Source of the DNA: Bradyrhizobium sp. CCBAU 051011
Lineage (GTDB): Bacteria > Pseudomonadota > Alphaproteobacteria > Rhizobiales > Xanthobacteraceae
DNA length: 64,000 nt
Reading direction: 5' to 3'
Assembly: GCF_009930815.1 (NCBI RefSeq)
Contig: NZ_CP022222.1
Span: 1-64,000 of the forward strand
Below the pieces are notes generated by a model. That model had not been told where the DNA came from and made no database searches. It worked only from the letters and a program-made list of their open reading frames with translations. Each line of letters begins with the position of its first letter. Within the stretch, counting starts at the first letter, position 1. Positions 30,594 to 63,738 of the stretch are shown here, piece after piece. The position numbers and the translations under genes were made by a program.

Positions 30594-30779
30594 CTAACGG
30601 CCGAGCCGACGCTCGACCCGCTTGCGGCTGCTGCCGACCTTCTTGACCGCCTTCTTTACAGCGCTCGCGGACTTCTTTGCCTTCTTCGCCGTGTAGCGCA
30701 CCTCGTAATCCTGCCCACCGGCGACCCGCGCTCCGTCCTGCTTGCGACCGCGTCTGGATTTCTTCTTTGCCTTTGCCAT
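30594..30779 (-). CDS. DUF3606-like small basic protein
   Basis: The ATG at 30779 gives 61 residues. A very basic N-terminus (MAKAKKKSRRGRKQDG) leads into DYEVRYTAKKAKKSASAVKKAVKKVGSSRKRVERRLGR, which has the DUF3606 pattern (YEVxYW-KK...LxxAVxxVGxSxxAVxxxL). DUF3606 proteins are frequent stress-induced proteins of rhizobia. An EcfG-type promoter sits 29 bases upstream, which supports stress induction. Confidence 0.7.
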   Translation of the reverse strand: MAKAKKKSRRGRKQDGARVAGGQDYEVRYTAKKAKKSASAVKKAVKKVGSSRKRVERRLGR

Positions 30780-30807
30780 CCTGCAATACCTCCCGTTGCG
30801 AGTGGGC

Positions 30808-30832
30808 AACGCGTCATGATGTGCCGGGTTCC
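30808..30832 (-). promoter_or_regulatory. EcfG-type promoter of the DUF3606 gene
   Basis: On the minus strand this reads GGAAC-N16-CGTT, an exact match to the general-stress sigma (EcfG) consensus of alphaproteobacteria. It lies 29 bases from the ATG at 30779. Confidence 0.75.
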
Positions 30833-30894
30833 TGTTCTCCCGCCGGAACGATTCAGCTCAGGTCAATTTGAATCCGTATTGAGTGGAGTTCATT

Positions 30895-31248
30895 ATGCGT
30901 AGCTCTAGTTGGACGCCGTCGATCGTCCCGAACGACAACGTTGAGACGGTTTACTTGGTGGCGGATGATCTCGGTCGACTAGGCCGCGCCTGGCGTGAAG
31001 CCGATTGCGAAACTGCCGACCTCGAGACGGTCCTCGGGGATCTGCTTACCGGCCAATACAGCAATCCAATTCGCATTGTCGCCTTCAATACCGCCGAGCA
31101 TTGGGCGGAAGATGTTTCCGAAGACGTCGCGCGCGAATTGCGCCGCCGCTGCGATCTGCAGATGCGCGAGCTTCCCCATACGATTTCTGATTTCGTCGAA
31201 CGGCACGATGTCCGCGATCGGCGTCAGCTGACCCTCCGGCTGGTATGA
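30895..31248 (+). CDS. Conserved-looking hypothetical protein
   Basis: The ATG at 30895 gives 117 residues (an ATG at 30883 is possible). The sequence is soluble and mixed helix/strand (TVYLVADDLGRLGRAWREADCETADLETVLGDLLTGQYSNPIRIVAFNTAEHWAEDVSEDVARELRRRCDL). It appears intact with good codon structure. I recall similar proteins in bradyrhizobia but no function. Confidence 0.65.
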   Translation: MRSSSWTPSIVPNDNVETVYLVADDLGRLGRAWREADCETADLETVLGDLLTGQYSNPIRIVAFNTAEHWAEDVSEDVARELRRRCDLQMRELPHTISDFVERHDVRDRRQLTLRLV

Positions 31249-31332
31249 ATCAGACCGTTCATGAACCTAACGACGTTTTTGCGCGTTCTGCTCGTTACGG
31301 GCGACAAGCAAGACCAACAAGGGACAACTGAA

Positions 31333-31650
31333 ATGCGCAACTTAATCTTTGGTGCAGCAAGTGCGCTTGCTCTTGCTTCTCCGGCCGTGGCGTCCGATCT
31401 GCCCGTAACCAGCTACAGCGAAAGCTATGCACGATCGTACGAGTACCGGACTTCTCCGCCGGTTGTTGTCGAGGAATCGGCTCCAATCGTTTCCGAGACT
31501 CTGGTGGTCCGCCGCCCCGTCATCGTAGCGCCGCCGCGAGTGGTGGTTGAAGAATATCCGGTGTATGCGGCACCGCGTGTATATGCGTACGAGGGTCCGG
31601 GTTGGCGTGGCGGATGGGGTCATCGACGTCACTTCCACGGTGGATGGTAA
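31333..31650 (+). CDS. Small secreted Val/Pro/Tyr-rich protein
   Basis: The ATG at 31333 opens a signal peptide (MRNLIFGAASALALASPAVASD). The 105-residue product continues with a low-complexity mature part (PPVVVEESAPIVSETLVVRRPVIVAPPRVVVEEYPVYAAP) and ends in a Gly/His-rich tail (WRGGWGHRRHFHGGW) that could bind metal. AAGGGAC precedes the start. Confidence 0.65.
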   Translation: MRNLIFGAASALALASPAVASDLPVTSYSESYARSYEYRTSPPVVVEESAPIVSETLVVRRPVIVAPPRVVVEEYPVYAAPRVYAYEGPGWRGGWGHRRHFHGGW

Positions 31651-31909
31651 AGTCCCGGAATTAGCTGCCGTCGCTGCGATTTGCAGACGTGCAAGCTTCC
31701 CGCTGCGAACTCTGATTTCGGCGGCAGCGGCAGTTGACCGTTCGGCTGCTCTGATCAGACTCGCATTTTGCCTGCGGTTGCCTATTTATCCCGCATGTCT
31801 AAATCTGCGTTCGATCCCTGCATTCCGACGCGCGGGACCAAGGTCCCCGATCGGCCGGAATGCCTTCAGAGATCAGGCACGATGGCTATCGACTAATGGT
31901 TCAACGTGA

Positions 31910-32204
31910 AGGCAAGCGAGTGCGTCTGCGGAGCCACATGATGAAGCGACATCCAGGAACACCTTCTCCCGAGAGATAGCTGCGGATGCCGAGCACATGC
32001 GGCGAGCAAGCGAAGCTTCGTATCTTCGCATGCTAGATGCGGATACGAAAGGTGCTGATTGGCGGGAAGTTGCGCGAGTCGTGCTTCATCTTGATCCAGA
32101 ACATGAATCTGATCGCGCTCGAACGGCGTTCGACAGCCATTTATCGCGCGCAGATGAATGAGCACGGTTACCGGCACCTGCTATGTGGTGGTGCCTCCGC
32201 TTAG
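31910..32204 (+). pseudogene. DUF2285-like protein remnant with frameshift
   Basis: One frame reads AEHMRRASEASYLRMLDADTKGADWREVARVVLHLDPEHESDRARTAFDSHLSRA and stops at 32159. The next frame continues QMNEHGYRHLLCGGASA to 32204. Joined, they have the GxxWREIA...GYRxLL pattern of DUF2285, a domain I associate with rhizobial integrative elements. The 5' end is undefined. Confidence 0.45.
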
Positions 32205-32492
32205 AGCGACCCTGAGCCAGCGGCGGCTCCTGACAAAGCGCATAAGAATGTCGAATCGGGTGGATCAAGTTCACGGGAAAACGTGGCAACTTTTTCGTTG
32301 CGACCGAATTGACTTTAGGAGCGGCATTCTTGGAGCTCAAAATGGGTGAGGGATTTCCGCTGAGGGTTGCGGTTGATCAGGCTTGCTCCTCGAAGTGTTC
32401 GACCGGACGTTGGCGGCGATTGCAAGTCCATTGCAGCGGGTATCGCAGCGTCGGTTCGATATGTGTTTAATTAACGGTCTTGAGGTTAACTA
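32205..32492. other. Intergenic stretch, no gene seen
   Basis: No supported frame, hairpin or promoter was found here on either strand. Confidence 0.4.
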
Positions 32493-32627
32493 ATGGCCGA
32501 TACTGACAGCCTGAAACTCATCGGACTTGCTTTTGCAATCGTGACATTTGCCGTCGTCACGGCGGCGGTGGTTGCGAATGTTGATGCTGAGGGGCTGGAC
32601 GTGCAATCGACATTCGTTGCGGGGTAA
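32493..32627 (+). CDS. 44-residue single-helix membrane peptide
   Basis: The ATG at 32493 follows GAGG. The peptide MADTDSLKLIGLAFAIVTFA... has one hydrophobic helix (about residues 8-30) and a short acidic tail. Single-span miniproteins of this design are common in bradyrhizobia. Confidence 0.5.
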   Translation: MADTDSLKLIGLAFAIVTFAVVTAAVVANVDAEGLDVQSTFVAG

Positions 32628-32665
32628 TCCGGAAACTTCCTGTGCCGGCGCTTCGAGGAACGGCC

Positions 32666-32854
32666 ATGGAATACAAAGCCATTCAGTTTGAAATCATTCA
32701 GACGACAAATCCATGTTGCTGGAAATGGGTCGTCTTTCTCGATGCCACCAAAACGCGGACTGGCATCGCGCTTACACGGGCCGACGCCGTGTTGGATGCC
32801 GAATTCGCCATCGAGAAAGCGGTGGAGAGCAGACAACGCTGCCTCAAGCAATAG
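32666..32854 (+). CDS. Small hypothetical protein
   Basis: The ATG at 32666 follows GAGGAACGG and gives 62 residues (MEYKAIQFEIIQTTNPCCWKWVVFLDATKTRTGIALTRADAVLDAEFAIEKAV). The pattern (strand-rich N-terminus with W-x-W/V, then a helix) is familiar from short bradyrhizobial proteins, but no function is known. Confidence 0.6.
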   Translation: MEYKAIQFEIIQTTNPCCWKWVVFLDATKTRTGIALTRADAVLDAEFAIEKAVESRQRCLKQ

Positions 32855-33006
32855 CGGCTTCAGCGCCGTGCGAAACGATATCGAAGCCGGCGTAGCTCGT
32901 TAGGAACCTTGCATTCTGTTCGGCATTTTCATGACATGCCAAGGTACTATTTCAACGTGCATACCGTGCGCCCAAGCGCCGGCGACTTGGGCCGAGAATC
33001 CCGATA

Positions 33007-33561
33007 ATGAAGCCGCTTGGAGACGCGCCACGGTCATCGCTGGCGCAGCTACCGCTCTTCGAGCGCAAAGCGCATCTCAAAAAGTTGATCGAGAAGACGG
33101 CCACCAATTCCGCGAAAGCTTCAAGGTCGACGGCAAGGAGATGTTCGCCCACGCCTGCAAAGTCGGGCTGGAAGGCGTCGTCTCCAAGGTCCGCGATAGC
33201 CGCTACCCATCAGGCGCGGCCGCGAATGGGTGAAAAAGACCTGTGCTCAGCGCGAGACACTGACCATCGCGGGCTTTGCCTTCGATGGCTACGATTGGGA
33301 TGGCATCTTGTCGGCCGCCGCAAGGGCGATGACCTGATCTACGCTGGCAAGGTCGACCACGGCTTCGACAAGAACTCATCCGCCGAGCTGCGCAAGCGCC
33401 TGACACCCTTGATCCGCAGAACCCAGCCCTACACGAAGCGGATCGCGCACAAGGGCATCTGGGTGGAGCCGGAGCTGAACGCCGAGATCGAGTACCGCGC
33501 CAAGTCAGCCGAGGGAAAGGTTCGCCATCCCTTCTTCAAGTGCCTGCGGGGGGACCTGTGA
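33007..33561 (+). pseudogene. LigD-type ATP-dependent DNA ligase, C-terminal remnant
   Basis: Ligase sequence is split over three frames: LPLFERKAHLKKLIEKT, then FKVDGKEMFAHACKVGLEGVVSKVRDSRYPSG, then REWVKKTCAQRETLTIAGFAFDGYDWDG, and finally back in the first frame GRRKGDDLIYAGKVDHGFDKNSSAELRKRLTPLI...IEYRAKSAEGKVRHPFFKCLR. This covers the end of the adenylation domain and the OB fold. The active-site lysine region and everything before it are absent. A full LigD acts with Ku in end joining. Confidence 0.8.
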
Positions 33562-33746: not shown

Positions 33747-33784
33747 ATCCAGGATCTCAACGGCCGGGGATCGCTGCACCAACA

Positions 33785-34030: not shown

Positions 34031-34109
34031 CTCGCTGTCTCCTCACAGAAATGCTGCGTGTGCTAACCGTGAGGAGCGGTAATGGTTGCTGTGTTCACTA
34101 ATGCGCATG

Positions 34110-34125
34110 TGGTCAATTTTGACCA
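34110..34125. promoter_or_regulatory. Crp/Fnr-type palindrome, copy 1
   Basis: TGGTCAATTTTGACCA has perfect GGTCAA/TTGACC half-sites, and only the middle AT pair is not strictly symmetric. It differs by one base from the palindrome at 39389-39404 next to the Crp/Fnr gene. Confidence 0.65.
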
Positions 34126-34272: not shown

Positions 34273-34298
34273 GGAACCGGCGCTGCCGCCGAAACGTT
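34273..34298 (+). promoter_or_regulatory. EcfG-type promoter candidate upstream of the NUDIX gene
   Basis: GGAAC-N17-CGTT on the plus strand; both N16 and N17 spacings are known for EcfG. It lies 190 bases from the NUDIX start. A 29-codon frame (34399-34488) that overlaps the NUDIX start lies between. Confidence 0.5.
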
Positions 34299-37793: not shown

Positions 37794-38643
37794 TTACTCC
37801 GGCTTGATGTTGGCCGCGCGGATCACTTTCGCCCACCTTTGCGTGTCGTCAACGACGAATTTTCCGAAGTCAGAGGGCGAGAGAACAAGAGGCGTAATGC
37901 CCAGATCGGCGTACGCGCCTTTATGCCGGGACGTGCTAGTCCGGCATTGATATGATCGTTGAGCTTCTGGATGATCTCGGACGGTGTGCCCCTCGGCGCC
38001 CCCACCCCTGCCCGCCCGTTCGCCTCGTATCCGCGGACCGTTTCGGCAATGGTCGGCACGTCGGGCATTGTGGGTGACCGCGCGGTGGTGGTCACCGCCA
38101 GCGCACGAAGCTTCCCGCCCTGATAAAATTCAAGCGACGGGGTCACACTAACGAACATGAGTTGGACTTGACCGCTGATTGCGTCGGTGAGCGCAGGTCC
38201 CTCGCCGCGATTGGGTACGTGAACGAGGTTGACGCCAGTCATGATCTTGAACAGCTCGCTGGCCACATGGCCCGGCGTCCCGACGCCGCCCTACCCATGT
38301 TGATTTTGCCGGGATTGGCTTTGGCGTAGGCGATGAAGTCCGGAACGGTTCTGGTGGGATGAGCAGGATGCATCACCATGAGTAGGGGGCCATGCACGAT
38401 CCCGGCGACCGGCGCAATGTCCCGGATGAAGTTGAAGTTAAGCCTGTCGTAGAGCGTTGCGTTGATTGCGCCCGGTGTTAAGGCCAGCAGGAGCGTATAG
38501 CCGTCGGCCGGTGCACGGACGACTGCCTCTGTGCCAATGTTGCCGCCGGCACCCGGCCGGTTCTCGACGACGAATTGCTGGCTGGGCCGCTCCGATAACC
38601 ACTGACCATTAGACGATATTCGAGCAAGCCGCCGGCGATACAA
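37794..38643 (-). pseudogene. Tripartite tricarboxylate transporter binding protein (TctC/Bug), decayed
   Basis: The sequence QFVVENRPGAGGNIGTEAVVRAPADGYTLLL...AKANPGKINMG is in one frame and ASELFKIMTGVNLVHVPNRGEGPALTDAISGQVQLMF...PDVPTIAET in another. The ending DFGKFVVDDTQRWAKVIRAANIKPE is in a third frame, with its stop at 37794. The signal peptide and first strand are missing. These are the hallmarks of Bug-family periplasmic carboxylate-binding proteins. At least two frameshifts make it a pseudogene. Confidence 0.8.
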
Positions 38644-40255: not shown

Positions 40256-41335
40256 ATGAACAATGTACTTTCCTACGCGCTACGCTCTTTCCAGCGCAAA
40301 CCCGAGAGAACCTCCACCGAGGTGGATGCGATAGCCAACGCAGTCCGCGTCGCCCTCGGTTGGCCTGACGAGGAACAAGCCTTCGAATTGCCCGGGCGGC
40401 TATTCGAACAACTCCCATTTGCCGTTTATGTCTGTGACCGGGACGGTCTCGTTCTGCGATACAATCACCGCGCTGCCGAACTATGGGGCCGGTCGCCTAA
40501 ACTCAGCGATCCTAATGAACGGTTTTGCGGATCGTATCGAATGTTCCGGCCCGACGGGAGTCTGTTGCCGCACCACCAATGCCCCATGGCAGATGTGCTG
40601 CGTACCGGTATTTCCGTGCGCGAACAGGAAGTTCACATCCAGCGACCTGACGGCTTGCGCGGCGTCGCGCTCGTTGACATCGAGGCAATCAAGGATAACG
40701 GTGGAAACGTTGTCGGTGCCGTCAACTGCTTCCAGGATATAACTGAGCGCAAACGCAGCGAGGCGCAGATCGTCAATCTCGCGCGCGAGGCAGAGCATCG
40801 AACAAAGAACATCTTGTCCACTGTGCTAGCGACGGTGCGTCTGTCCAATTCCGATACGTCTGATGGTCTGAAGCAACTGATCGAAGGGCGCATCAATGCC
40901 CTCGCAAAAGTCCATACGCTGTTCGTGGAATCCCGTTGGGCGGGACCCGAGCTTCACCGCCTGGCCACGCAGGAGCTTATGGCTTACAGCGGGGAGATTG
41001 AGGCACGTGTGCGAATTGAGGGGCCAGCCGTAATGCTGGAGCCGAGTACAGCTCAGACTACTGCAATTTCCCTGCACGAGCTCGCGACCAACGCGGCAAA
41101 ATACGGATCGCTATCGGCAGCGGGTGGTCACGTTGACCTCTCATGGTCCCTTACAGCAGACGGAAGGCTCAGCTTCCGCTGGATCGAATCGGGTGGCCCG
41201 GCCGCCACGCCGCCCACGCATCGCGGGTTCGGCACACGCATTTTGGAAAATATGATTGGCCAACTCAAGGGTGAGGTGCATTTTGATTGGCGCGACCGAG
41301 GGCTAATTTGCGAAATCTCCTTGCCGCTTGCATAG
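40256..41335 (+). CDS. PAS-domain HWE-family sensor histidine kinase
   Basis: This is a 359-residue cytoplasmic kinase. A PAS domain spans about residues 48-165 (LPFAVYVCDRDGLVLRYNHRAAELWGRSP...VNCFQDITERKRSE). The HWE dimerisation region has phosphorylatable His181 (AEHRTKNILSTV). The ATPase domain has N-box HELATNAAKYG (274-284) and the family WxE (RWIESGG, Trp309-Glu311). HWE/HisKA_2 kinases are the typical inputs to PhyR-NepR-EcfG stress signalling. The gene ends at a bidirectional terminator shared with csbD. Confidence 0.92.
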   Translation: MNNVLSYALRSFQRKPERTSTEVDAIANAVRVALGWPDEEQAFELPGRLFEQLPFAVYVCDRDGLVLRYNHRAAELWGRSPKLSDPNERFCGSYRMFRPDGSLLPHHQCPMADVLRTGISVREQEVHIQRPDGLRGVALVDIEAIKDNGGNVVGAVNCFQDITERKRSEAQIVNLAREAEHRTKNILSTVLATVRLSNSDTSDGLKQLIEGRINALAKVHTLFVESRWAGPELHRLATQELMAYSGEIEARVRIEGPAVMLEPSTAQTTAISLHELATNAAKYGSLSAAGGHVDLSWSLTADGRLSFRWIESGGPAATPPTHRGFGTRILENMIGQLKGEVHFDWRDRGLICEISLPLA

Positions 41336-41413: not shown

Positions 41414-41605
41414 CTATTTTTTGAGGGCGTCAGCGGCGTCCCGCACTGCATCCTTCACATCTCCCGCGGCGTTGTGCGCGGATCCCTTGGCCTTATCAAT
41501 CTTGCCTTCGGTTTCCAGGTCCTTGTCATTACTGAGCTTACCGGCACCTTCTTTGATGGCGCCTTTTGCCTTGTCGGCAGCGCCCTTCACATGTTCGCGA
41601 TCCAT
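41414..41605 (-). CDS. CsbD-family stress protein
   Basis: This 63-residue protein, MDREHVKGAADKAKGAIKEG..., shows the repeated K-G-x2-x3-K pattern of CsbD (KGAADKAKGAIKEGAGKLSND, KIDKAKGSAHNAAGDVKDAV). CsbD proteins are abundant general-stress proteins of unknown mechanism. An exact EcfG promoter lies 33 bases upstream, so control by the general-stress sigma factor is well supported. Confidence 0.92.
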   Translation of the reverse strand: MDREHVKGAADKAKGAIKEGAGKLSNDKDLETEGKIDKAKGSAHNAAGDVKDAVRDAADALKK

Positions 41606-41637: not shown

Positions 41638-41662
41638 AACGAAAGAGTTACGCCGCCGTTCC
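41638..41662 (-). promoter_or_regulatory. EcfG-type promoter of csbD
   Basis: GGAAC-N16-CGTT on the minus strand, an exact consensus match, 33 bases from the CsbD start codon. Confidence 0.85.
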
Positions 41663-41682: not shown

Positions 41683-41760
41683 CGACTTCTGAGTTTGGCA
41701 CTTTTGAGACATGCTGACTGGGCTGACAAGGTCCGTTTACAGGGGGAGACCGGAAGTAGT
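41683..41760 (-). repeat. Dispersed intergenic repeat, copy A
   Basis: On the minus strand it begins with a CTTCCGGTCT block, continues to CATGTCTCAAAAGTGCC and ends near AGAAGTCG. The same modules in the same order occur at 58852-58930 (plus strand), and the first module recurs at 63150-63180. Confidence 0.65.
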
Positions 41761-41832
41761 TGGCCGACGGCCAAAGTGACGCGATTGACCCTAAAGCAGC
41801 GTATTGAGCTCCCGGCCATCGCGGGGAGATCC

Positions 41833-41958: not shown

Positions 41959-42597
41959 TTAAGCGGTGCGCCGGATCTCTTCCATACTTTGTTTGATCTG
42001 CTTTCCGGCGTCGTCGGCCATTTTGAGCGACATGTCGGCTATCCGACGGCTGCTCTCCAGGGCGGTTTCCACGGTCTCTCGCACCATGTCACTTTGTACG
42101 GCTGCAAAGTCCTGAGGAGTTCGGCAGGACCACAACTCATTCATGTGGTCCATGTTCTTCTCGACTTGATGCCGAATCATCTGGAAGTACTCTTGAGACA
42201 TTCCACCCACTACTCTGGCAGCAGCTGTACCAGTGTAAAGCAGTGTTTGCGCGTTGCGCGCCGACCGTTCCGTTGCCTTCGTTGCCTGTTGCACCCCTTC
42301 TCCTGACACGCCGAGCGTGCGACCAAATTGCTCGGTAGACCGTCCCATGGCCGAGGTCGCGGCTTCCAGGCCGAAGCGCCATGCGTTCTGCAACGTCTCG
42401 ACGTTTTGCTTGAGCAGGTTCGCACTCGCTCGAGCCACTTCCTCCCCGGCTTCAGCCGCAGCTTGCCCCACACGCGCCGTCTGATCAGCTGCAGCTTGTC
42501 CGATACGGGTGGTCTGCTCAGCAGCACTCTCGCCAGCGCGGCGGGCTGCGTCTTCCATGCCTTGCGTAGACTTGTCCTCCTGGCGGGGATTTGCCAT
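41959..42597 (-). CDS. Phasin-family protein
   Basis: The ATG at 42597 follows GGAGAA. The product has 212 residues. The N-terminal third is an Ala/Gln-rich repeat of ARxGESAAEQTTRIGQAAADQTARVGQAAAE. The rest is the helical phasin domain (LKQNVETLQNAWRFGLEAATSAMGRSTEQF...EYFQMIRHQVEKNMDHMNELWSCRTPQDFAAVQSDMVRETVE). Phasins coat polyhydroxyalkanoate granules and also act in stress. An exact EcfG promoter lies upstream. Confidence 0.9.
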   Translation of the reverse strand: MANPRQEDKSTQGMEDAARRAGESAAEQTTRIGQAAADQTARVGQAAAEAGEEVARASANLLKQNVETLQNAWRFGLEAATSAMGRSTEQFGRTLGVSGEGVQQATKATERSARNAQTLLYTGTAAARVVGGMSQEYFQMIRHQVEKNMDHMNELWSCRTPQDFAAVQSDMVRETVETALESSRRIADMSLKMADDAGKQIKQSMEEIRRTA

Positions 42598-42646: not shown

Positions 42647-42671
42647 AACGCGATCTGGGTGAGACCGTTCC
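42647..42671 (-). promoter_or_regulatory. EcfG-type promoter of the phasin gene
   Basis: GGAAC-N16-CGTT on the minus strand, an exact match, 50 bases from the start codon. Confidence 0.8.
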
Positions 42672-42932: not shown

Positions 42933-43115
42933 CTAGGTCGCGCTAGGCCACCGGGCGCGGGCTAGCCGCACCAGTTCGGTGCGCTGACATATCTTGCAGC
43001 GATACTGAATAAGATCATTCCCCTTGTCATCAGGATCAATCTTCTCAAGCGTCATCGTTTGATTGCAGTCAATGCAAGTCAACAAATCGGGCAACCTGCT
43101 CCGGTTATCGTTCAT
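42933..43115 (-). CDS. Small zinc-ribbon protein
   Basis: The ATG at 43115 gives 60 residues. A CxxC pair (LLTCIDCNQTM) and a second (YRCKICQRTELVRLARARW) form a rubredoxin-like zinc ribbon. The function is unknown. A weak EcfG-like promoter lies 52 bases upstream. Confidence 0.6.
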   Translation of the reverse strand: MNDNRSRLPDLLTCIDCNQTMTLEKIDPDDKGNDLIQYRCKICQRTELVRLARARWPSAT

Positions 43116-43166
43116 ATGAGCCGTAGCCGCCACGGGCGTGTGTCCCTCTGCCGCAGTTCGACTAGC

Positions 43167-43191
43167 AACATATCGTTATGGCGGATGTTCC
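43167..43191 (-). promoter_or_regulatory. Weak EcfG-like promoter
   Basis: GGAAC-N16-TGTT on the minus strand, one base off consensus, before the zinc-ribbon gene starting at 43115. Confidence 0.35.
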
Positions 43192-43628: not shown

Positions 43629-44798
43629 ATGGAGAACCGTTCCAACGAAACGAGAGAAGCCGACGTGCTGGACAAGCTCCGGCGTCACGTTCGTATTTTG
43701 GCCGATATCGGACGAATTGCGAGTGCGAGTGCGGAGTTAAATCATTTCCTGGACCAAGCCGTCGTCCAGATCGCTCGGGCAGTCGAAATACACCATGTAA
43801 AAATTCTTCGATATCGTCCCGAGACGTCGGATCTGCTCCTCGTCGCAGGTGTCGGATGGAAGGAAGGTGTCGTTCGCACAGCTACGTTGTCCGCAGACCT
43901 GCGTTCACCGCCTGGGCGCGCATTTCAAACGGCAGAGCCGGTCAGCATCAAGGATTTCAGAGAGCAAGATGAGTACGTCCCGTCAGATTTTTTGAAGGAG
44001 CATGGCATCATCTCAGTGGCCAATGTGCCTGTGCTGATCGGAGGTGCGGCATGGGGCGTGTTGGAGGTGGATAGTACTTCGCCTAGAGACTTCAGTGAGG
44101 ATACGAGTGATTTCCTATCGTCCGCTGCGGGCCTCATAGGCTCCGTGCTGCGCCACCATGCGCAGCCGGATAAAGAAGCACGCTTGATGGCTGCGGCTAC
44201 CGAGGCTCAGAAACAAGAGATTCTGCTTCGCGAATTGCAACACCGTGTCAAGAATAACTTCCAGCTCGTTTTGTCCTCTATTTCCATTCAGAAACGTCGG
44301 TATCAAGGTCTGGAGGTTCATCGCGCGCTGGATCATGTTGCAAGTCGCATCAACGCCATTTCACTCGCACACGATCAGCTCGCATCGCGACACGAAGGCA
44401 AGACAGTCAGACTGTCAGATTACATTCGCGCTCTTAGCAGCGCAATCCGTCAGCAGATCGACGGCGTCGAGATTGACGTAGAGTCGGATGAACTTGAATT
44501 GAGCATTGATCGAGCCTTGCCGGTTGGTCTCATCTTGAATGAAGCAGCAATGAACAGCATCAAACATGCATTTGGCCCGGATGCGGGCAAGATAAAAGTG
44601 AGATTGGTCGGAGGCATCGGTTATGGGGAGGCCCGCCTCACCGTTTCTGACAACGGACGCGGTATCCGTCAGCCGAGCGAACACGGGTCCGGACTTAAAC
44701 TAATTGCTTCTCTTGCAAGACAGATCGGCGGCACCATTGAACAGGAAAGTTCAGATTCCGGGACGACAACGACGCTCACGTTTCCGTTGATAAATTGA
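43629..44798 (+). CDS. GAF-domain HisKA_2-type sensor histidine kinase
   Basis: This is a 389-residue cytoplasmic kinase. A GAF domain spans about residues 35-175 (FLDQAVVQIARAVEIHHVKILRYRPETSDLLLVAGVGW...NVPVLIGGAAWGVLEVDS). The HisKA_2 helix has His205 (RELQHRVKNNFQLVLSSI). The HATPase part has NEAAMNSIKHAFG and DNGRGIRQPSEHGSGLKLI. With the PAS kinase 3 kb upstream it could feed the PhyR-EcfG general stress response. No PhyR, NepR or EcfG gene lies in the window. Confidence 0.92.
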   Translation: MENRSNETREADVLDKLRRHVRILADIGRIASASAELNHFLDQAVVQIARAVEIHHVKILRYRPETSDLLLVAGVGWKEGVVRTATLSADLRSPPGRAFQTAEPVSIKDFREQDEYVPSDFLKEHGIISVANVPVLIGGAAWGVLEVDSTSPRDFSEDTSDFLSSAAGLIGSVLRHHAQPDKEARLMAAATEAQKQEILLRELQHRVKNNFQLVLSSISIQKRRYQGLEVHRALDHVASRINAISLAHDQLASRHEGKTVRLSDYIRALSSAIRQQIDGVEIDVESDELELSIDRALPVGLILNEAAMNSIKHAFGPDAGKIKVRLVGGIGYGEARLTVSDNGRGIRQPSEHGSGLKLIASLARQIGGTIEQESSDSGTTTTLTFPLIN

Positions 44799-45466: not shown

Positions 45467-46087
45467 TTAACGCAGTCCACCGCCGTACAGGGCTCGTTCC
45501 TTCCGAACCTCCTCAGCGCCGTAGGGTTTGCTGGCAGGATCGAACGATTTCCACCCAGCCTTTTGCCAGGCGGCACTCCGGTCGCGCAGGTTGATGGCTG
45601 ACTCGTTCAATATTGAATCGAGGCGCGACCGGTCCGCGTCGGCCACTCGTGCCGACACCAGCGTGCCTCCACGACGGACGCCCTCGGCGTAGGAGTGAGC
45701 ATCCTCTGCCGAAACGCCAGCCTCCGTGAGTGCTCCGACAATACCGCCGGTAGCTGCTCCTGCGGCCGCGCCAACCGCGGTCGCGGCCAGCCAACCAGCT
45801 GCGACAACGGGGCCGAGGCCGGGGATCGCAAGCAATCCGAGCCCTGCAAGAAGGCCGGCCGTGCCACCTACGCCCGCACCGATGCCGGCGCCTTTCCCGG
45901 CACCTTCGGCGCGATCGTCGACGCCATCGCGGTCGCGATCCACCTTCTTGTCGGTGTTGAACCAGCTGTCTGAATTATTGGCGACGATGCTGATGTCCGA
46001 GTGCGGCACGCCTGCGGATTCGAGGCGCCGAACAGCCTGCTGAGCGTCATTGTAGTTGTCGTAAAGACGAGAAATTGTAACGGTCAT
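45467..46087 (-). CDS. General stress protein (YflT/17M-like) with glycine-rich membrane segment
   Basis: This 206-residue protein has an N-terminal YflT-type fold (TVTISRLYDNYNDAQQAVRRLESAGVPHSDISIVANN). A Gly/Ala-rich hydrophobic middle follows (GAGKGAGIGAGVGGTAGLLAGLGLLAIPGLGPVVAAGWLAATAVGAAAGAATGG). The C-terminal part is EAGVSAEDAHSYAEGVRRGGTLVSARV. Such proteins are stress-induced in many bacteria. It is the second gene of an operon with 46100-46417 (12-base gap), which has an EcfG-like promoter. Confidence 0.85.
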   Translation of the reverse strand: MTVTISRLYDNYNDAQQAVRRLESAGVPHSDISIVANNSDSWFNTDKKVDRDRDGVDDRAEGAGKGAGIGAGVGGTAGLLAGLGLLAIPGLGPVVAAGWLAATAVGAAAGAATGGIVGALTEAGVSAEDAHSYAEGVRRGGTLVSARVADADRSRLDSILNESAINLRDRSAAWQKAGWKSFDPASKPYGAEEVRKERALYGGGLR

Positions 46088-46099
46088 GCTAACCCTTCC

Positions 46100-46417
46100 T
46101 TATTTGGCGGGATTGACGTTGCCTTGAAAATCGACGCTTACCGCAGTGGCTGCCCCGCCCTTGCTGGCTTTGCCGCGCCAGACACCATTGTCGTCCTTTT
46201 TCAGTTCGGTGACGTTGGCGTAGCCCGCATCCTCGATCTTCGACTTGGCTTGCCCTTCGGTGAAGCTATTGCGACCAGCGACAGGAGAGTTGGAGTTGTT
46301 GTGCCCGGGGCTGTTGACCGCGCTGTTGTTCGGTCCCGACTGCGCAGGCGGATTTTGCGCGGAAGCCGTGGTAGCTGCCAATAATCCAATACAAATGAAA
46401 AGAAATGAGCGTTTCAT
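46100..46417 (-). CDS. Secreted PepSY-like small protein
   Basis: The ATG at 46417 follows GGAG. The 105-residue product has a signal peptide ending TASAQN and an Asn/Pro/Ser-rich linker. A domain like PepSY/YPEB follows (NSFTEGQAKSKIEDAGYANVTELKKDDNGVWRGKASKGGAATAVSVDFQGNV). It is the first gene of the stress operon, and a periplasmic location is expected. Confidence 0.75.
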   Translation of the reverse strand: MKRSFLFICIGLLAATTASAQNPPAQSGPNNSAVNSPGHNNSNSPVAGRNSFTEGQAKSKIEDAGYANVTELKKDDNGVWRGKASKGGAATAVSVDFQGNVNPAK

Positions 46418-46447: not shown

Positions 46448-46472
46448 AACCACTCGCTACCGCTTTAGTTCC
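46448..46472 (-). promoter_or_regulatory. EcfG-like promoter of the stress operon
   Basis: GGAAC-N16-GGTT on the minus strand (one base off CGTT), 31 bases from the ATG at 46417, the same spacing as the exact sites. Confidence 0.6.
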
Positions 46473-46871
46473 TAAATCCTGTGAGTTAGGCGCTTACGCG
46501 CTTTGCTAGGAACTCCCACCGCTTGAGTGCGTCGGCCGGGATATCGTTCGCGCGGCAGTGGAGCGCCTTCCTGATCGTAATGGATGCGCACAGGCCGAAA
46601 CGTCTGCACCATGCGAACTCCAATCGTGATTTTGGCCGAACCCGATATTGCGATCATCGTTCGATCGCTTCAAAATCCAGCCGAACGTATCCAAGCCGTC
46701 CTTGCGTCTAGGCCGAACGTTGCATGAGGGTCCGAAAGAGCCGAGATAGAATGGGGGTCGAAAAGTCCACCTCTCGAATTGGCTGACCATCATTCGAGCG
46801 ACAATTCAAGCATCTTATCGTGAATCGTGGCGTGGCCATCTCGGAACACTTCAACGTTGGCGTCGTTCCGC
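46473..46871. other. Intergenic stretch, no gene seen
   Basis: Frames on both strands are short and lack starts or family resemblance. Confidence 0.45.
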
Positions 46872-47549
46872 CTAAACCTCATCCCGTGCCGGAGCGACTT
46901 CGTTGATCTGTAAAGATCGCCGGTAGTTCAAGCAGCTCATCCGCAACAGCGAAACAGCGGGCCTCCAGGAGCGCTTGTTTGGCAACCCACCTGTAAGAAG
47001 CCCGGCGGCTGCAATGCCTGCTCCGCTCGCGGCTTCGGCGTCGTACGGAGTGTCTCCGATCATGACGACTTGCCCGGCTGATATCCCGAGCTTTCCAAGC
47101 GCCAGCCCCACTAATCGTGGATCCGGCTTGCCATGTTCAACGTCGTCCCCGCATGCCATGGCATCGATGAGATCATCGATATTCAGTAGCGAACGGTAAT
47201 GGTTGAGTTCAGGACCCTTGCAGTCCGTGGCGAGCGCAATCCTGCCGCCGCCCTCCCTTAGTGCCTCGAACACATCCCGCACACCCGCGAATGCCTTAAC
47301 GCTTCCCAGGTATTTGGCTTGGTAAATTTTCCTTTTGGCTTCCAGCACCTCCTGCCGCTCGCGCGCGATCAGGTCTGGGGCTACGAGCTGAAGGGTTTGA
47401 TCGCCGTCTAGTCCGGAATAAAGTTGCAGGAGCTCGTAGGGAACGCTAACCCCGAAGTCGCCCAAGCACACCTGAAGGCTCAGCAGGTTCTGCGGCACGC
47501 TGTCCACAAGCGTGCTTTCGACATCAAATATGTAACCGCTAAACAGCAT
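46872..47549 (-). pseudogene. HAD-superfamily hydrolase with C-terminal frameshift
   Basis: A phosphoglycolate-phosphatase-like HAD protein. Motif I is FDVESTLVDS, where the usual second Asp is Glu (DxE). Motif II is in ALATDC, the lysine is in HGKPDPR and motif IV is VMIGDTPYDAEAA. After GLLTGG the frame turns into KRSWRPAVSLLRMSCLNYRRS, while the next frame carries the expected ending KQALLEARCFAVADELLELPAIF. A single frameshift near 46980 therefore changes the last 45 residues. The core domain may still fold; activity is uncertain because of the DxE motif. Confidence 0.75.
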
Positions 47550-47559: not shown

Positions 47560-47763
47560 CCGCAGAAAAGTGGCCGGAGTCGCCCAGCATGTCCTTGATT
47601 GACGCAGCAACTTGCCCCTCACCGCCTCACGACCGAAAAAACGCCGGCGACCGCGATTGCGATCGATGATGGGGCCTATGGAGAAGACGGAATAATAAGC
47701 CAGCGCCGCGCCCTGACGCGCGTCCTTTATGGCTCGACTAATTTCCCGCAGCATCACTTGCAA
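47560..47763 (-). pseudogene. YihY/BrkB-family membrane protein, N-terminal remnant
   Basis: REISRAIKDARQGAALAYYSVFSIGPI, followed after a small frame change by FFGREAVRGKLLRQ, matches the first helix region of YihY/BrkB proteins (AAALAYYTxFSLAPLL...VFGxEAAxGxL). The remaining 200 or more residues are absent. Confidence 0.6.
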
Positions 47764-47900
47764 TCGACCATAGCATCGCGAGCCCTTTCACCTTCTCAAT
47801 GGGCGACATCGCGAGCGGTTCCAAATTTGAACAAACAACGCCTTGGATCGAGATGCGGGACAGCCCAGTGTAAAGCTTGAGGGATACGAGGAGCATTTTT

Positions 47901-47925
47901 GGAACGTATCCATCCTGCTGCTGTT
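47901..47925 (+). promoter_or_regulatory. EcfG-like promoter of the dehydrogenase gene
   Basis: GGAAC-N16-TGTT on the plus strand (one base off consensus), 56 bases before the ATG at 47981. Confidence 0.5.
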
Positions 47926-47980
47926 GCGCTCAGACGACATGGACCCGTGAATGTGCATGCCGATCCATAAGGAGAACCTA

Positions 47981-49156
47981 ATGCGCGCACTGTGCTGGCA
48001 CGGAAAAGGCGACGTTCGGGTAGACACCGTTCCCGATCCCAAAATCCAGCACCCCCGCGATGCCGTCATCAAGATCACCGCCTGCGCGATCTGTGGTTCC
48101 GACCTTCATCTGTTTGACGGCTATCAGCCCACCATGGAGAGCGGGGATATTCTCGGGCATGAGAATATGGGCGAGGTTATCGAACTTGGCTCCGAAGTCA
48201 CGAACCTGAAGATCGGTGATCGCGTCGTCGTTCCATTCACTATCAGCTGCGGTCAATGCTGGTTCTGTCAGAAGGGTCTGTTTTCGTGCTGCGACCGCAC
48301 TAATCCGAACGCCGAAGTGGCAGCCAAAGCCATGGGACAATCGCCTGCCGGGCTGTTCGGCTTCAGCCACATGCTAGGCGGATACGCGGGCGGCCAGGCC
48401 GAATATCTCCGCGTCCCGATGGCCGATGTGGGCCCGATCAAGGTGCCGGAAAACATAACCGACGAGCAGGCGCTATTTCTGTCAGATATCTTCCCGACCG
48501 GCTATATGGCCGCGGTCAACGCACAGATTGAGCCAGGCGATACCGTGGCGATCTGGGGCTGCGGTCCTGTAGGGCAGTTCGCGATCCGCTCCGCCTTGAT
48601 CCTGGGCGCCGGCCGAGTCATCGCGATTGACGAGGTGCCCGAGCGATTGGCCATGGCGGAGGCCGGCGGCGCTGACACGATCGATTTCTCGAAGACGGAC
48701 GTCTACGACGAGCTCATGAGACGAACCAATAAGCGTGGTCCCGATAGCTGCATCGATGCGGTTGGTTGCGAAGCGTCCGGTCACGGCGCGGCCGACGCAG
48801 TTCTCGATAGGGTCAAGGCAGCGACGTTCTTGGCGACGGACCGCATTCACGTCCTCCGCGAGGCAATCATGTGCTGTCGCAAGGCCGGCACGGTTTCCAT
48901 ACCCGGGGTTTACGTTGGCATGGGCAACGAAATTCCGTTGGGTGCCGCGATGAACAAGGGTCTCACCATCAAGACCGGTCAAACTCATGTCCAGGCCTAC
49001 ACCCAGCCGCTCCTCAAACTTATCCAAGCTGGTGATATTGACCCGAGCTTCGTTGTTACACATCCCGCGAGCCTCGAAGACGCGCCGGCTATGTACAAGA
49101 AGTTTCGCGACAAGGAAGACGGCGTCATCAAGGTTGTCATGCGCCCGGGTAGATAG
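47981..49156 (+). CDS. Zinc-dependent alcohol/formaldehyde-type dehydrogenase
   Basis: The ATG at 47981 follows GGAG. The product has 391 residues of the MDR family. The catalytic zinc region is [13 protein letters not shown] and GHENMGEV. The structural zinc cluster is [17 protein letters not shown]. The Rossmann motif is [16 protein letters not shown]. The length and the insert after the zinc cluster resemble glutathione-independent formaldehyde dehydrogenases. It oxidises an alcohol or aldehyde with NAD(P), and an EcfG-like promoter suggests stress induction. Confidence 0.9.
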
Positions 49157-49333: not shown

Positions 49334-49358
49334 GGAACAACTCAACGGCAATCTCGTT
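49334..49358 (+). promoter_or_regulatory. EcfG-type promoter of the DUF892 gene
   Basis: GGAAC-N16-CGTT on the plus strand, an exact match, 31 bases before the ATG at 49389. Confidence 0.85.
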
Positions 49359-49388: not shown

Positions 49389-49895
49389 ATGGCTAGAGAG
49401 AAAGAACTGAAAGATCTGTTTCTTGATACACTGAAGGATATCTACTTCGCCGAAAAGAAGATCCTGTCCGCCCTGCCGAAAATGGCCAAAGCCGCGCAGT
49501 CGCCGAAGCTTAAGGCTGCGTTCGAAAAGCACATGGCCGAAACCGACGGCCAGGTCGAGCGGCTTGAGCAGGTATTCGCGTCGATCGACGAAACGCCGAA
49601 GGGCAAGACCTGCGATGCCATTATGGGAATCATTGAAGAAGGCAAGGAAGTTATGGACGAGTACAAGCGTATGCCCGCCCTTGACGCTGGTCTGCTTGCT
49701 GCCGCACAGGCCGTCGAGCATTACGAGATTTCGCGTTATGGCACCCTCAAGACCTGGGCAAACGAATTGGGTTACGCCGACGCAGTGAAGTTGCTCGATG
49801 CAACCCTGAAGGAAGAGAAGGCAACGGACAGTGCCCTGAGTCAGCTCGCGGCATCCGAAGTCAATCAGCACGCCGAAACCGCGAAAGCCGCGTGA
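49389..49895 (+). CDS. DUF892 (YciF-type) ferritin-like protein
   Basis: This 168-residue four-helix protein, REKELKDLFLDTLKDIYFAEKKILSALPKMAKAAQSPKLKAAFEKHMAETDGQVERLEQVF, has helices with the acidic and His residues of a di-iron-type bundle (AVEHYEISRYGTLKTWANELG). YciE/YciF homologues are stress-induced. GGAGG precedes the start, and an exact EcfG promoter and a downstream terminator frame a single-gene unit. Confidence 0.92.
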   Translation: MAREKELKDLFLDTLKDIYFAEKKILSALPKMAKAAQSPKLKAAFEKHMAETDGQVERLEQVFASIDETPKGKTCDAIMGIIEEGKEVMDEYKRMPALDAGLLAAAQAVEHYEISRYGTLKTWANELGYADAVKLLDATLKEEKATDSALSQLAASEVNQHAETAKAA

Positions 49896-51503: not shown

Positions 51504-51731
51504 CTACGAGACCAGCGTTAGCGATTTATATCTCACGCGGTAAGCATCGATGGCTCTGTTGGAGAGGATTAGCCTTCGCCTCTCGCCGTCTCCCATCATT
51601 TCCGCAATTTCATCGAGAAGGAAACATGAAGTGTCGTGAGTGAGGTCACCTGATCTCTCAAGCACACTCCAAGCGATTTCGTAAGACTGCTCCAAGAGGT
51701 CGGCGTCGTGCATGGGGACGAGAACGGCCAT
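51504..51731 (-). CDS. Small conserved-looking hypothetical protein
   Basis: This 75-residue protein has GGAGG four bases before the ATG at 51731; a second ATG lies at 51713. The sequence is MHDADLLEQSYEIAWSVLERSGDLTHDTSCFLLDEIAEMMGDGERRRLILSNRAIDAYR. I recall similar short proteins in bradyrhizobia. An exact EcfG-type motif overlaps the start region. Confidence 0.65.
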   Translation of the reverse strand: MAVLVPMHDADLLEQSYEIAWSVLERSGDLTHDTSCFLLDEIAEMMGDGERRRLILSNRAIDAYRVRYKSLTLVS

Positions 51732-52611: not shown

Positions 52612-52615
52612 CAGT

Positions 52616-60855: not shown

Positions 60856-60856
60856 C

Positions 60857-61506: not shown

Positions 61507-61537
61507 ATCGCGCCACTAAACTGGAGGTCGAAGGGCG

Positions 61538-61639
61538 GTAACGGAATACGAAAAAGCGCAGGAGGCTTTCCAAAAGAACTACGAACGATTGCGGGCTGAG
61601 CGATTAGCTAGGGAAGCCGCGAAGCCCAAAGAGAAATAG
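61538..61639 (+). pseudogene. Small helical protein remnant without start codon
   Basis: The frame TEYEKAQEAFQKNYERLRAERLAREAAKPKEK (stop at 61637) is protein-like, but the codon before it is GTA where ATG would be expected. It is probably a small gene whose start is lost. Confidence 0.35.
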
Positions 61640-62004
61640 CACCGTTGCTCCGTGGGTCACATGAAAGCGCTGGACGGCACTCTATACCCACGCGCCCCTA
61701 GACTGCTCATGACCGCAGAGCGCCCATACCCGCGTAGTTTCTCGCGCAGGTGGCCAGAGTCCGTTGTGGGGGCGCCCTGGCAAGAACTTTCTGACGTTTT
61801 GCAGCATTGGTCGGGTGCGGTCACGTGTCCGGCCTGTTGATGCGGCAGGTGTGGCCGCTGGCCCTAATGCTCTGCGCGGATCGGGTCCCAATCGTTCGCA
61901 TGCACTTGAAAGTGCGTTGACCCAAACGGGCTCTCCCAATCCCCGGAACAACCGTATCTGCATTACGTCGTCATGCCCTCGCCAATCGTTGAAACTCCTA
62001 TTGT
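61640..62004. other. Intergenic stretch before the IS element, no gene seen
   Basis: No supported frame was found. The left end of the IS110 element probably lies within the last 60 bases; terminal repeats are not expected for this family. Confidence 0.4.
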
Positions 62005-63036
62005 CTATGCTGCTGGCAGCAATCTTGGCTCTTTGAACTGCTCTCCGCGTACCATCATGGCCCAGGCCATGCGCGCGATTTTATTGGCAAGCGCCACGGC
62101 GGCGACCTTGATCGGCCGGCGCTCCATAATATGCGCAAGCCAGAGGCGCCGCGTGCCATGCTGCCGCGCGTATCGGATAACGGCCATGGCGCCCGTGACG
62201 AGCAGCCATCGCAAATATCGATTTCCCTGCTTTGAGATTCTACCCAGACGTTCCTTGCCGCCGGTCGAATGCTGCTTGGGAACAAGCCCGATCCAGGCCG
62301 CCAGGCTTCGTCCGGACGAGAACTCTTTCCAATCACCGACTTCTGAGACCAGGGCGGTGGCGACGATGGGACCAACGCCTGGGATCTGCTCGAGCCGGCG
62401 GCTTTCTTCGCTTGAACGATGCCAGGCATGGATGCGCTTCTCGATAGCTCCGATCTCAGCTGCGATCGCGGCGTGTTGGCGGGCAAGAACCTCGAGGCTG
62501 AACCGTGCGGCCGCGGGTATCCGACCATCCTTCTCGTCAGCAATGATCTTGAACAGCTCGGCTGTGCCGTTGCGCCCCTTTGCCGAGATAATGCCGAGCT
62601 CGGCCAAGTGACCGCGGATCGCGTTCGACAGCATCGTTCGCTGACGGACCAGTAGCTGTCGGCTGCGATGCAGCATCAGGCCTGATTGTTGCTGCTCGCT
62701 TTTGGTCGGCACAAAACGCATCGACGGACGTGTCACTGCCTCGCAGATCGCCGCAGCATCATTAGCGTCGTTCTTACTGCGCTTGAGATAGGCCTTCACA
62801 TAACTGGGCGGCATCAGCCGCACCGTATGGCCGAGCGCCCGGAGCTCACGGCTCCAATGATGGGCACTTGGGCAAGCTTCAATGCCAACAACGCAAGCCG
62901 GCAAAGTCGAGAAGAACTCCAGCACCTTGGCGCGGCTCACACGCTTGCGGATCACAACCGCGCCATCAACATCTGCGCCGTGAACCTGGAAGACTGACTT
63001 CGCAATATCGAGACCAATCGTGCTAACCTCGCCCAT
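62005..63036 (-). CDS. IS110-family transposase (DEDD recombinase)
   Basis: This 343-residue transposase is full length. The N-terminal RuvC-like DEDD domain has Asp10 (GLDIAKSVFQVHG), Glu53 (VGIEACPSAHHW) and Asp90/Asp93 (KRSKNDANDAAA). The C-terminal transposase_20 domain has LEQIPGVGPIVATALVSEVGDW and GRSLAAWIGLVPKQHSTGGKERLGRISKQGNRYLR, with the family serine in the last segment. All key residues are present, so the element may be active. IS110 recombinases are guided by an RNA from the element's own non-coding end. Confidence 0.95.
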   Translation of the reverse strand: MGEVSTIGLDIAKSVFQVHGADVDGAVVIRKRVSRAKVLEFFSTLPACVVGIEACPSAHHWSRELRALGHTVRLMPPSYVKAYLKRSKNDANDAAAICEAVTRPSMRFVPTKSEQQQSGLMLHRSRQLLVRQRTMLSNAIRGHLAELGIISAKGRNGTAELFKIIADEKDGRIPAAARFSLEVLARQHAAIAAEIGAIEKRIHAWHRSSEESRRLEQIPGVGPIVATALVSEVGDWKEFSSGRSLAAWIGLVPKQHSTGGKERLGRISKQGNRYLRWLLVTGAMAVIRYARQHGTRRLWLAHIMERRPIKVAAVALANKIARMAWAMMVRGEQFKEPRLLPAA

Positions 63037-63115
63037 GGACGGCTCCCCTCAAAGTGGTTTGCTTCAACGCAACCACCCCTATGGCACTTCGATGCCGCAG
63101 AGTGGGCGCCGTCCA
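63036..63115 (-). ncRNA. Candidate bridge/seek RNA region of the IS110 element
   Basis: Directly upstream of the transposase start, 63036-63043 (TGGACGGC) pairs perfectly with 63108-63115 (GCCGTCCA). The closed region contains a stem GTGGTT-T-GC/GCAACCAC (63054-63076) and a short stem GGCA/TGCC (about 63083-63096). IS110 elements encode a structured guide RNA in the end upstream of the transposase. The fold fits that role, but guide loops were not assigned. Confidence 0.4.
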
Positions 63116-63149
63116 CAGCATCATTCGCGTCGGTTTGGCGGCGTACCGA

Positions 63150-63180
63150 TGACTTCCGGTCTACCCCTATAAACAGGCCA
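63150..63180 (+). repeat. Dispersed intergenic repeat, truncated copy C
   Basis: It contains the first module (GACTTCCGGTCTACCCC...AAACAGG) of the repeat found at 41683-41760 and 58852-58930; the second module is absent. Confidence 0.5.
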
Positions 63181-63181
63181 T

Positions 63182-63223
63182 GCGAGACTGATCCATTCCC
63201 GGGCGAGACTGATCCATTCCCGG
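63182..63223. repeat. Perfect tandem duplication of 21 bp
   Basis: Two identical 21-bp units starting GCGAGACTGATCCATTCCC lie head to tail, at 63182-63202 and 63203-63223, beside the IS110 element. Confidence 0.8.
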
Positions 63224-63296
63224 CGCTCCAGGCCATTGGCTGGGACTGCGAGCTTCATGGCCGCTTCCGCTTGGCTCTCAGGTCGTAATGCGCTGC

Positions 63297-63680
63297 CTAG
63301 CGTAATAGGCCACCTCGCGACTCGCAGTACTCGGGTGTCCCGTAATACTGGTGGGTGCGCGTTTCCCAGTCTCGATCCTGCCACGAGTCATCACTGAACT
63401 CAGGCGCGTCCCTCAACTGTTGCTCGGTGATATTTGTTCGGAAACCACCAAGCGACGTATCATATGTCAGAGCGCCCCAGGGTATGGGATAATGGCTGTG
63501 GCCTAACCCAACAAATCCGCCAAAACTCATGACGGCATAGGCTACGCGACCTGACACCTTGTCGATAATGAGATGATCTATCTCACCGATGTTCTTTCCA
63601 CCTGCCCCATAAACCTCGGTTCCCTGAATGTCTTCGCTTGAGATGCATTGATGATCCGGATGGGCTGTCGCACCGGCCAT
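63297..63680 (-). CDS. PRC-barrel domain protein
   Basis: The ATG at 63680 follows GAGGGACG. The product has 127 residues. The PRC barrel is clear: ISSEDIQGTEVYGAGGKNIGEIDHLIIDKVSGRVAYAVMSFGGFVGLGHSHYPIPWGALTYD. The C-terminal tail is acidic and aromatic. Stand-alone PRC-barrel proteins are common EcfG targets in alphaproteobacteria, and an EcfG-like promoter lies 34 bases upstream. Confidence 0.9.
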   Translation of the reverse strand: MAGATAHPDHQCISSEDIQGTEVYGAGGKNIGEIDHLIIDKVSGRVAYAVMSFGGFVGLGHSHYPIPWGALTYDTSLGGFRTNITEQQLRDAPEFSDDSWQDRDWETRTHQYYGTPEYCESRGGLLR

Positions 63681-63713
63681 GGCTTCGTCCCTCAATAGTA
63701 AGTTTGTCGCCTT

Positions 63714-63738
63714 AACTCGGCAGCTACCGGGTCGTTCC
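63714..63738 (-). promoter_or_regulatory. EcfG-like promoter of the PRC-barrel gene
   Basis: GGAAC-N16-AGTT on the minus strand (one base off consensus), 34 bases before the start at 63680. Confidence 0.6.

Follow-up and report, generated by a model that had tools for sequence, protein, structure and literature searches.

The general stress response built on PhyR, NepR and the sigma factor EcfG has been described in Bradyrhizobium japonicum/diazoefficiens and in Rhizobium etli, and these systems form the background for the locus analyzed here: a segment of accessory DNA (30594-63738) in the first 64 kb of the single contig of Bradyrhizobium sp. CCBAU 051011 (9,099,371 bases; genome G000), in which a series of genes is preceded by putative EcfG-type promoters. 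This 64-kb stretch is referred to as the window. According to the available part of PMC3892343, EcfG1 of R. etli has the motif GGAAC-N16-CGTT, and the accessible text of PMC8092242 gives more than 100 EcfG-controlled genes for B. diazoefficiens. The present genome shares the motif, its spacing and a core locus with PhyR, NepR, EcfG and an HWE kinase; it differs from the known systems in that the sites are concentrated on what appears to be an integrated island, with 15 of the 151 exact matches lying in 2% of the genome.

The closest parallels come from other rhizobia. In Sinorhizobium meliloti, rpoE2-dependent genes carry SMa and SMb tags on megaplasmids, and chromosomal (SMc) tags mark the regulators rsiA1 and rsiB1, as listed in the available portion of PMC3616915. 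This arrangement—RpoE2 targets on pSymA and pSymB, regulators on the chromosome—represents a comparable split between accessory targets and core regulators, although the carriers there are two megaplasmids, and here an island inserted in a tRNA gene and a plasmid of conjugative type (pCC1502_1). Accessory DNA likewise takes part in the general stress response of R. etli CFN42 through EcfG2 (PMC3892343, same available part); in that strain a plasmid carries the sigma factor, whereas on the island and on pCC1502_1 there are targets and HWE/HisKA_2 kinases but no close EcfG. Genomic islands commonly sit at tRNA genes, as stated in the part of PMC11218460 that was available. Bradyrhizobium symbiosis islands and other tRNA islands have in common with the present one insertion at a tRNA 3' end, a direct repeat, a putative integrase-like remnant next to the tRNA and a lower G+C (guanine plus cytosine) content; the present island is set apart by a cargo enriched in EcfG-type promoters and by its site, tRNA-Lys(CTT). 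A literature search by title and abstract start, covering few subscription papers and not extended to tRNA-Lys islands, returned no EcfG-regulated Bradyrhizobium island or plasmid. The motif and the PhyR-NepR-EcfG system are known, and the new element is the concentration of EcfG-type targets on a tRNA-Lys island. We consider it quite probable that the accessory stress genes of this island carry their own EcfG-type promoters and that these are read by the core EcfG.

EcfG-type sites in the window

An earlier note on this DNA had proposed exact GGAAC-N16-CGTT sites in front of four genes, and a pattern search placed each of them where it had been claimed: at 30808-30832 (-) before a DUF3606 protein gene (30594-30779, -), at 41638-41662 (-) before the CsbD-family gene csbD (41414-41605, -), at 42647-42671 (-) before a phasin (Phasin_2) gene (41959-42597, -) and at 49334-49358 (+) before a DUF892 protein gene (49389-49895, +). 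Two additional exact matches, at 46843 (+) and 51723 (-), had been omitted, and bring the number in the window to six. The four one-base variants proposed in the note were also recovered, with TGTT at 43167-43191 (-) before a small zinc-ribbon gene (42933-43133, -), GGTT at 46448-46472 (-) before a gene pair (45467-46417, -), TGTT at 47901-47925 (+) before a zinc-binding alcohol dehydrogenase family gene (47957-49156, +) and AGTT at 63714-63738 (-) before a PRC-barrel gene (63297-63680, -). All four are changed at one common position, the C of CGTT, which gives the form GGAAC-N16-(A/G/T)GTT. The gene pair encodes a small secreted PepSY-like protein (46100-46417; named from the earlier note and by eye, with no Pfam match) and a YflT-like protein (45467-46087), and the zinc-ribbon protein has two CxxC pairs by eye and no Pfam or NCBIfam match. 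A second copy of csbD, 95% identical, has its own EcfG-type site at genome position 190500.

Measured from the last base of the -10 element, the called start lies 28 nt away for the DUF3606 gene, 32 nt for csbD, 49 nt for the phasin gene, 30 nt for the DUF892 gene and 30-33 nt for the PepSY-like, dehydrogenase and PRC-barrel genes; for the zinc-ribbon gene the distance is 33 nt to a GTG or 51 nt to an ATG. The claimed promoter spacing thus holds for eight genes (28-51 nt) and fails for a ninth, a NUDIX gene. A site with an N17 spacer does exist at 34273, the only match to that pattern in the window (a number reached by 46 of 100 shuffles), but its assignment to the NUDIX gene was not borne out: the two lie 186-189 nt apart, and none of five NUDIX upstream regions has the motif within 130 nt. 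Similarly, the exact match at 51723 was rejected as a promoter; it overlaps the start codon and Shine-Dalgarno sequence of a small frame and is therefore probably a chance match.

The window has six exact N16 sites, whereas 100 dinucleotide-shuffled versions of it contained 0.51 on average and never more than 3. For regional counts, sites were considered promoter-placed if they fell outside genes and preceded a called gene by 5-120 nt, as defined by a simple purpose-written gene caller (the zinc-ribbon gene was missed by this caller and its site is absent from these counts), and 60 evenly spaced blocks of 20 kb each (1.2 Mb in total) from the same genome served as control blocks. Four exact promoter-placed N16 sites fell in 30.5-64 kb and five in 64-200 kb, compared with none in 1-30.5 kb, one in 200-463 kb and five across the control blocks; five control motifs with an N16 spacer gave 0 in every region and in the control blocks. 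Relaxing the pattern to GGAAC-N16-NGTT gave 7 sites in 30.5-64 kb, 8 in 64-200 kb, 4 in 200-463 kb, 12 in the control blocks and 0 in 1-30.5 kb; control motifs relaxed likewise gave 0, 0-1, 0-2 and 1-3 in the first four of these, respectively. The seven sites in 30.5-64 kb stand against 0.87 expected by intergenic bases (P 3.5e-5) and 0.39 expected by genes; in 64-200 kb, eight sites stand against 2.60 expected by intergenic bases (P 5.4e-3). Enrichment of the motif in the segment over the rest of the genome and over shuffled DNA, which the note had put forward for checking, was therefore found, and the set of sites is not due to chance.

Moreover, the motif is retained in front of relatives of the same genes. 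Across nine families (the eight with window sites plus HlyIII), and counting distinct upstream regions with the motif within 130 nt, it was kept in 37 of 48 regions, or 29 of 40 once the eight regions of the window are set aside—counts that are not independent, as the compared regions are related and the eight families were picked for having a window site. In 12 neighboring families (NUDIX, HK2, HWE1, HAD, Crp, P460, PyrRedox, NMT1, CspA, FmdA, methyltransferase and the LigD fragment) it occurred in none of 69 regions, and each of three control motifs was found in none of 117. Both elements persist while the spacer diverges in all seven PRC-barrel and all four zinc-ribbon upstream regions; conservation is weaker for PepSY (2/5), the zinc-binding dehydrogenase (2/5), DUF3606 (2/3) and DUF892 (11/15). 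Enriched over control blocks and kept before relatives, the sites behave as EcfG-type promoters would, in keeping with the original proposal. The genes of the segment run in both orientations, and a HAD hydrolase gene (46872-47549, -) has no EcfG-type site upstream.

The tRNA-Lys island and its mosaic blocks

A perfect direct repeat of 56 bp links the window to a distant tRNA gene. Its left copy (27522-27577, +) consists of 45 nt of the tRNA-Lys(CTT) 3' end and 11 nt beyond, and its right copy, at genome positions 209415-209470, overlaps an intact tRNA-Lys(CTT) gene (209426-209501). The DNA between the repeats spans 181.8 kb, occupies 27578-64000 of the window and continues to genome position 209414, with a G+C content of 58.7%. 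Its 15 exact sites compare with an expectation of 2.77 based on the remaining genome (P 2.5e-7); beyond 190 kb, the next exact site occurs only at 390 kb. The segment is thus best read as the left fifth of an island inserted at the 3' end of tRNA-Lys(CTT). The clustering on one probable mobile segment that had been claimed is upheld by the repeat ends and the excess of sites, and the interval given for it (30594-63738) does lie inside an island, the true extent of which is wider (27.5-209.4 kb). Within the same island, at 101933-111616, EcfG-type sites at 103914, 104018, 109982 and 110086 fall in a polysaccharide-like cluster, judged by eye.

Immediately inward of the right repeat lies a frame (208976-209368) with 85% identity over 126 amino acids to the end of a full-length relative, a 443-residue protein of genome G106 (13607-14938 of L315) that itself ends 57 nt before the same tRNA sequence, and with 73% identity over 124 amino acids to another full-length protein near a tRNA copy in genome G114. 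One UniRef member of this family is named 'Tyr recombinase domain-cont...', and the residues R346, H369 and Y378 are invariant, with the spacing known from tyrosine recombinases. When solved structures were searched by profile with the protein, the sole match was to a ribosomal protein (E 1.3). We regard the frame as a putative truncated integrase-like remnant adjoining the intact tRNA, and because of this truncation the island has probably lost the ability to move by itself. With five pCC1502_1 proteins as queries, no conjugation or partition match was found in 1-463 kb at E 1e-5. The transposases include an IS110 element at 62005 and, among those checked further right, two with rve domains. 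When the two island flanks were joined as a query, tRNA-side matches mostly started near the repeat, and in genome G087 both flanks lie on one contig, 1.65 kb apart.

Blocks of the segment recur, in a different order, in three other loci (L052, L053 and L070) and elsewhere in the same genome; 46.49-49.96 kb, for example, recurs at 5.979-5.986 Mb with 83-97% identity. These alignments indicate that gene-plus-promoter blocks have been duplicated, reordered and lost between the island, other accessory regions and other genomes. The exact site at 46843-46867 (+) illustrates a loss. Its 25-mer is shared with the promoters of an intact HlyIII-family gene at 5.985 Mb and of one in L053, where the gene follows 31-32 nt on; the alignments of the window to L053 and to the 5.98 Mb copy stop exactly at the CGTT, after which the window lacks the HlyIII gene and about 2.4 kb along with it. 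We interpret this site as an orphan promoter left by gene loss.

Several other remnants and repeats were observed in the region. At 47573-47900 (-) lies a probable remnant of a YihY/BrkB-type membrane gene (named by eye from plasmid annotation) cut short by a 0.7-kb deletion, where the 5.98 Mb copy runs on. The phasin block is separated from the CsbD promoter by an intergenic repeat of 100 bp (41690-41800). This repeat has 23 matches genome-wide at 72-100% identity, its own copy and partial ones included, and presumably resembles an intergenic repeat common in Bradyrhizobium; it was rejected as a block mover, as only one block end (41799) coincides with it. A TctC-type binding protein gene at 37823-38643 (-) is split into two overlapping frames and is apparently broken, and 33007-33561 (+) encodes the C-terminal part alone of a LigD-type DNA ligase, with related C-terminal sequences recurring in further accessory regions and genomes. 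No known RNA family reached its gathering score in 28-64 kb.

Kinases, related genomes and plasmids

Two histidine kinases lie in the segment, a PAS-HWE kinase (HWE1; 40256-41335, +) and a GAF-HisKA_2/HWE kinase (HK2; 43629-44798, +). Neither has an EcfG-type site upstream, and such sites were absent from all 22 HK2 regions and the single HWE1 region compared. HK2 is patchy in the genus, occurring in nine of 117 genomes at E 1e-100 (G000 included), with its closest named matches in Bradyrhizobium at 94-96% identity. The HK2 loci of relatives contain 24 EcfG-type sites in 13 loci against 6.5 expected from the G000 control blocks. The HWE domain has 16 Pfam matches in the genome. Eleven HWE genes lie below 5.72 Mb, a split match being counted as one; for these, the excess of exact sites within 15 kb is due solely to the two window kinases; outside the window there are 6 sites against 4.4 at random (P 0.29), and HWE kinases were discarded as general companions of EcfG sites. 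Speculatively, the two island kinases, which the note counted among those that feed PhyR, could add inputs to the PhyR-NepR-EcfG switch.

To gain a broader view, TAGGAAC-N17-GTT was searched in 11 single-contig genomes: G000, eight drawn from the listed genomes without an HK2 match, and G106 and G114, taken for holding HK2. The sites cluster in G000, G002, G106 and G114 (0 of 5000 simulations each) and in G019 (8-9 of 5000), and the reversed pattern gives 0-2 pairs within 20 kb per genome. Same-strand tRNA-Lys end repeats bound 7.42-7.66 Mb in G002, with 8 of that genome's 25 sites (0.6 expected), and 7.01-7.32 Mb in G106, with 11 of 28 (0.94 expected); the G000 interval holds 16 of 40 (0.8 expected), some of the 16 not being promoters. 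These intervals were picked after the repeats had been seen, and far-apart opposite copies in G015 and G021 were left out. The G114 cluster (6 of 15 sites) lies between two oppositely oriented tRNA-Lys copies, a second G106 cluster (4.07-4.15 Mb) begins 19 kb from another copy, and the G019 cluster lies away from its single copy. Genes behind the clustered promoters of G002, G106 and G114, some of them named by eye, include DUF892, Mn-catalase, isochorismatase, DUF4142, PRC-barrel and CsbD. In G002, four exact and one near tRNA-Lys end copy stand in a row at 7422697-7658843 (L313, L314 and L320), as if several islands had inserted in tandem.

Relatives of HK2 were also found at E 1e-60 on two Bradyrhizobium barranii plasmids (76% identity) and two Microvirga plasmids (42-43%). 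Reports of plasmids in Bradyrhizobium are rare, with CC1502 being one of three plasmid carriers in an inoculant set (available part of PMC11837538). Plasmid pCC1502_1 (441,693 bp) has 30 exact sites against 0 for the backward pattern, and 1-6 matches to other control motifs; the equivalent numbers are 37 against 18 for pS11L-1 and 35 against 6 for a Bosea plasmid. Promoter-placed NGTT sites on pCC1502_1 number 43 against 8.5 expected from the G000 control blocks (a different strain), about five times the control per intergenic base, and spacers from N13 to N19 give 1, 1, 3, 43, 9, 0 and 5 sites. The best EcfG match on this plasmid is 28% identical, no NepR was found and PhyR is matched in its receiver half only (E up to 1e-3), so that the plasmid carries kinases and probable targets but no recognizable switch. 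Three response-regulator-like genes with EcfG-type promoters occur at 295997-296356, 361821-362171 and 378186-378473, one annotated as a response regulator and two identified by eye; proteins of this kind contribute to the response in other alphaproteobacteria.

The regulator and the alternative readings

One core locus, at 3.21 Mb, encodes intact EcfG, NepR and PhyR together with an HWE kinase. The only NepR match of the genome and its only intact close EcfG are found there, and for this reason the island genes would be switched on by the chromosomal PhyR-NepR-EcfG system. The locus itself (L051) has no exact EcfG-type site, and a GGAAC-N16-CATT near-match directly upstream of nepR falls short of exact motif control of the core locus. 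Since this locus is the likely regulator, the designation as an accessory EcfG regulon given in the earlier note fits as regards sites, conservation, island and core regulator, the NUDIX gene being the part that drops out. In the mechanism we propose, the genes for CsbD, phasin, DUF892, PRC-barrel, the zinc-binding dehydrogenase, DUF3606 and others each have their own EcfG-type promoter, GGAAC-N16-(C/N)GTT; under stress, PhyR would free EcfG, which would then read island and core promoters alike. Promoter and gene go together as blocks that are duplicated and reordered, relatives of several of the genes with such promoters sit on conjugative plasmids, and losses leave remnants such as the site at 46843.

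A number of points weigh against this proposal. The bare exact pattern is noisy and only mildly enriched at genome scale (151 matches against 111 for the reversed pattern), which is why promoter position was used in counting. The region is gene-poor, the segment being 56% coding, so that more chance matches are to be expected, and the excess in 64-200 kb is modest once intergenic bases are corrected for. Clustering was absent in six of the 11 genomes (G004, G005, G008, G009, G015 and G021), and short tRNA-Lys intervals were empty in G009 (0 of 20 sites), G005 (0 of 11) and the same-strand pair of G114 (0 of 15). Nearly all named UniRef members of the integrase-like family are called 'hypothetical protein', neither Pfam nor NCBIfam matches the family at E up to 0.1, and in the 117 genomes none of the joined-flank matches listed spans the junction. 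Finally, the search for PhyR covered part of the genome, and the argument is built from sequence.

Among the alternatives, the one that survives best holds that the promoters are real but read by another extracytoplasmic function (ECF) sigma factor, for instance an EcfG paralogue. Candidates exist: an EcfG-like gene at 5437973-5438467 (-), 68% identical to the core EcfG and in a region with EcfG-type sites, a 38% identical match at 4.350 Mb and weaker ECF matches, and ECF -35 elements with AAC are common. The 68% copy, however, is interrupted by an internal TAG stop and seems to be a decayed accessory ecfG. The motif, moreover, is the one published for R. etli EcfG1, and in that species it is present in only one of the 19 units with reduced levels in the ecfG2 mutant, according to the available part of PMC3892343. 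We therefore consider a paralogue unlikely to read these sites. Less probable still is that the sites are a normal section of the core stress regulon, inherited vertically, that happens to lie in a gene-poor region. Such clusters do occur in core-like DNA, as seen at 1274971-1281040, where five EcfG-type promoters precede genes for CsbD, a small membrane protein and L,D-transpeptidase-like, AI-2E-like and DUF883-like proteins (names by eye) in a dense 20-kb block (90% coding, 63% G+C); on the island, the tRNA repeat and integrase-like remnant, the patchy occurrence of HK2, the reordering of blocks between genomes and the gene relatives on conjugative plasmids all speak against vertical inheritance. 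The last reading, chance matches favored by low G+C and abundant non-coding DNA, deserves almost no credence: single sites could be chance, as those at 51723 and before the NUDIX gene look to be, but for the whole set it is already refuted by the empty exact control-motif counts, by the specific spacing (43 sites with N16 on pCC1502_1 against 0-9 at other spacings) and by elements that persist while their spacers change.

The reading of the island as a carrier of stress genes under core EcfG control suggests that stress defenses travel on mobile DNA and are switched on by a core chromosomal regulator. More tentatively, the island and the conjugative plasmids may together represent a shared pool of 'plug-in' stress genes, equipped with their own EcfG promoters and no sigma factor of their own, the kinases of which may add inputs to PhyR-NepR-EcfG, so that the stress response could be rewired by acquired DNA; we see this extension as possible, and hold it less firmly than the reading of the island itself. 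Most accounts present the general stress response as a core programme of the chromosome. Should a sizeable share of its promoters lie on islands and conjugative plasmids, the stress tolerance of root-nodule and soil strains could be gained, duplicated and lost as units pre-wired to the sigma factor of the host, which could help to explain differences between strains in desiccation and salt tolerance.

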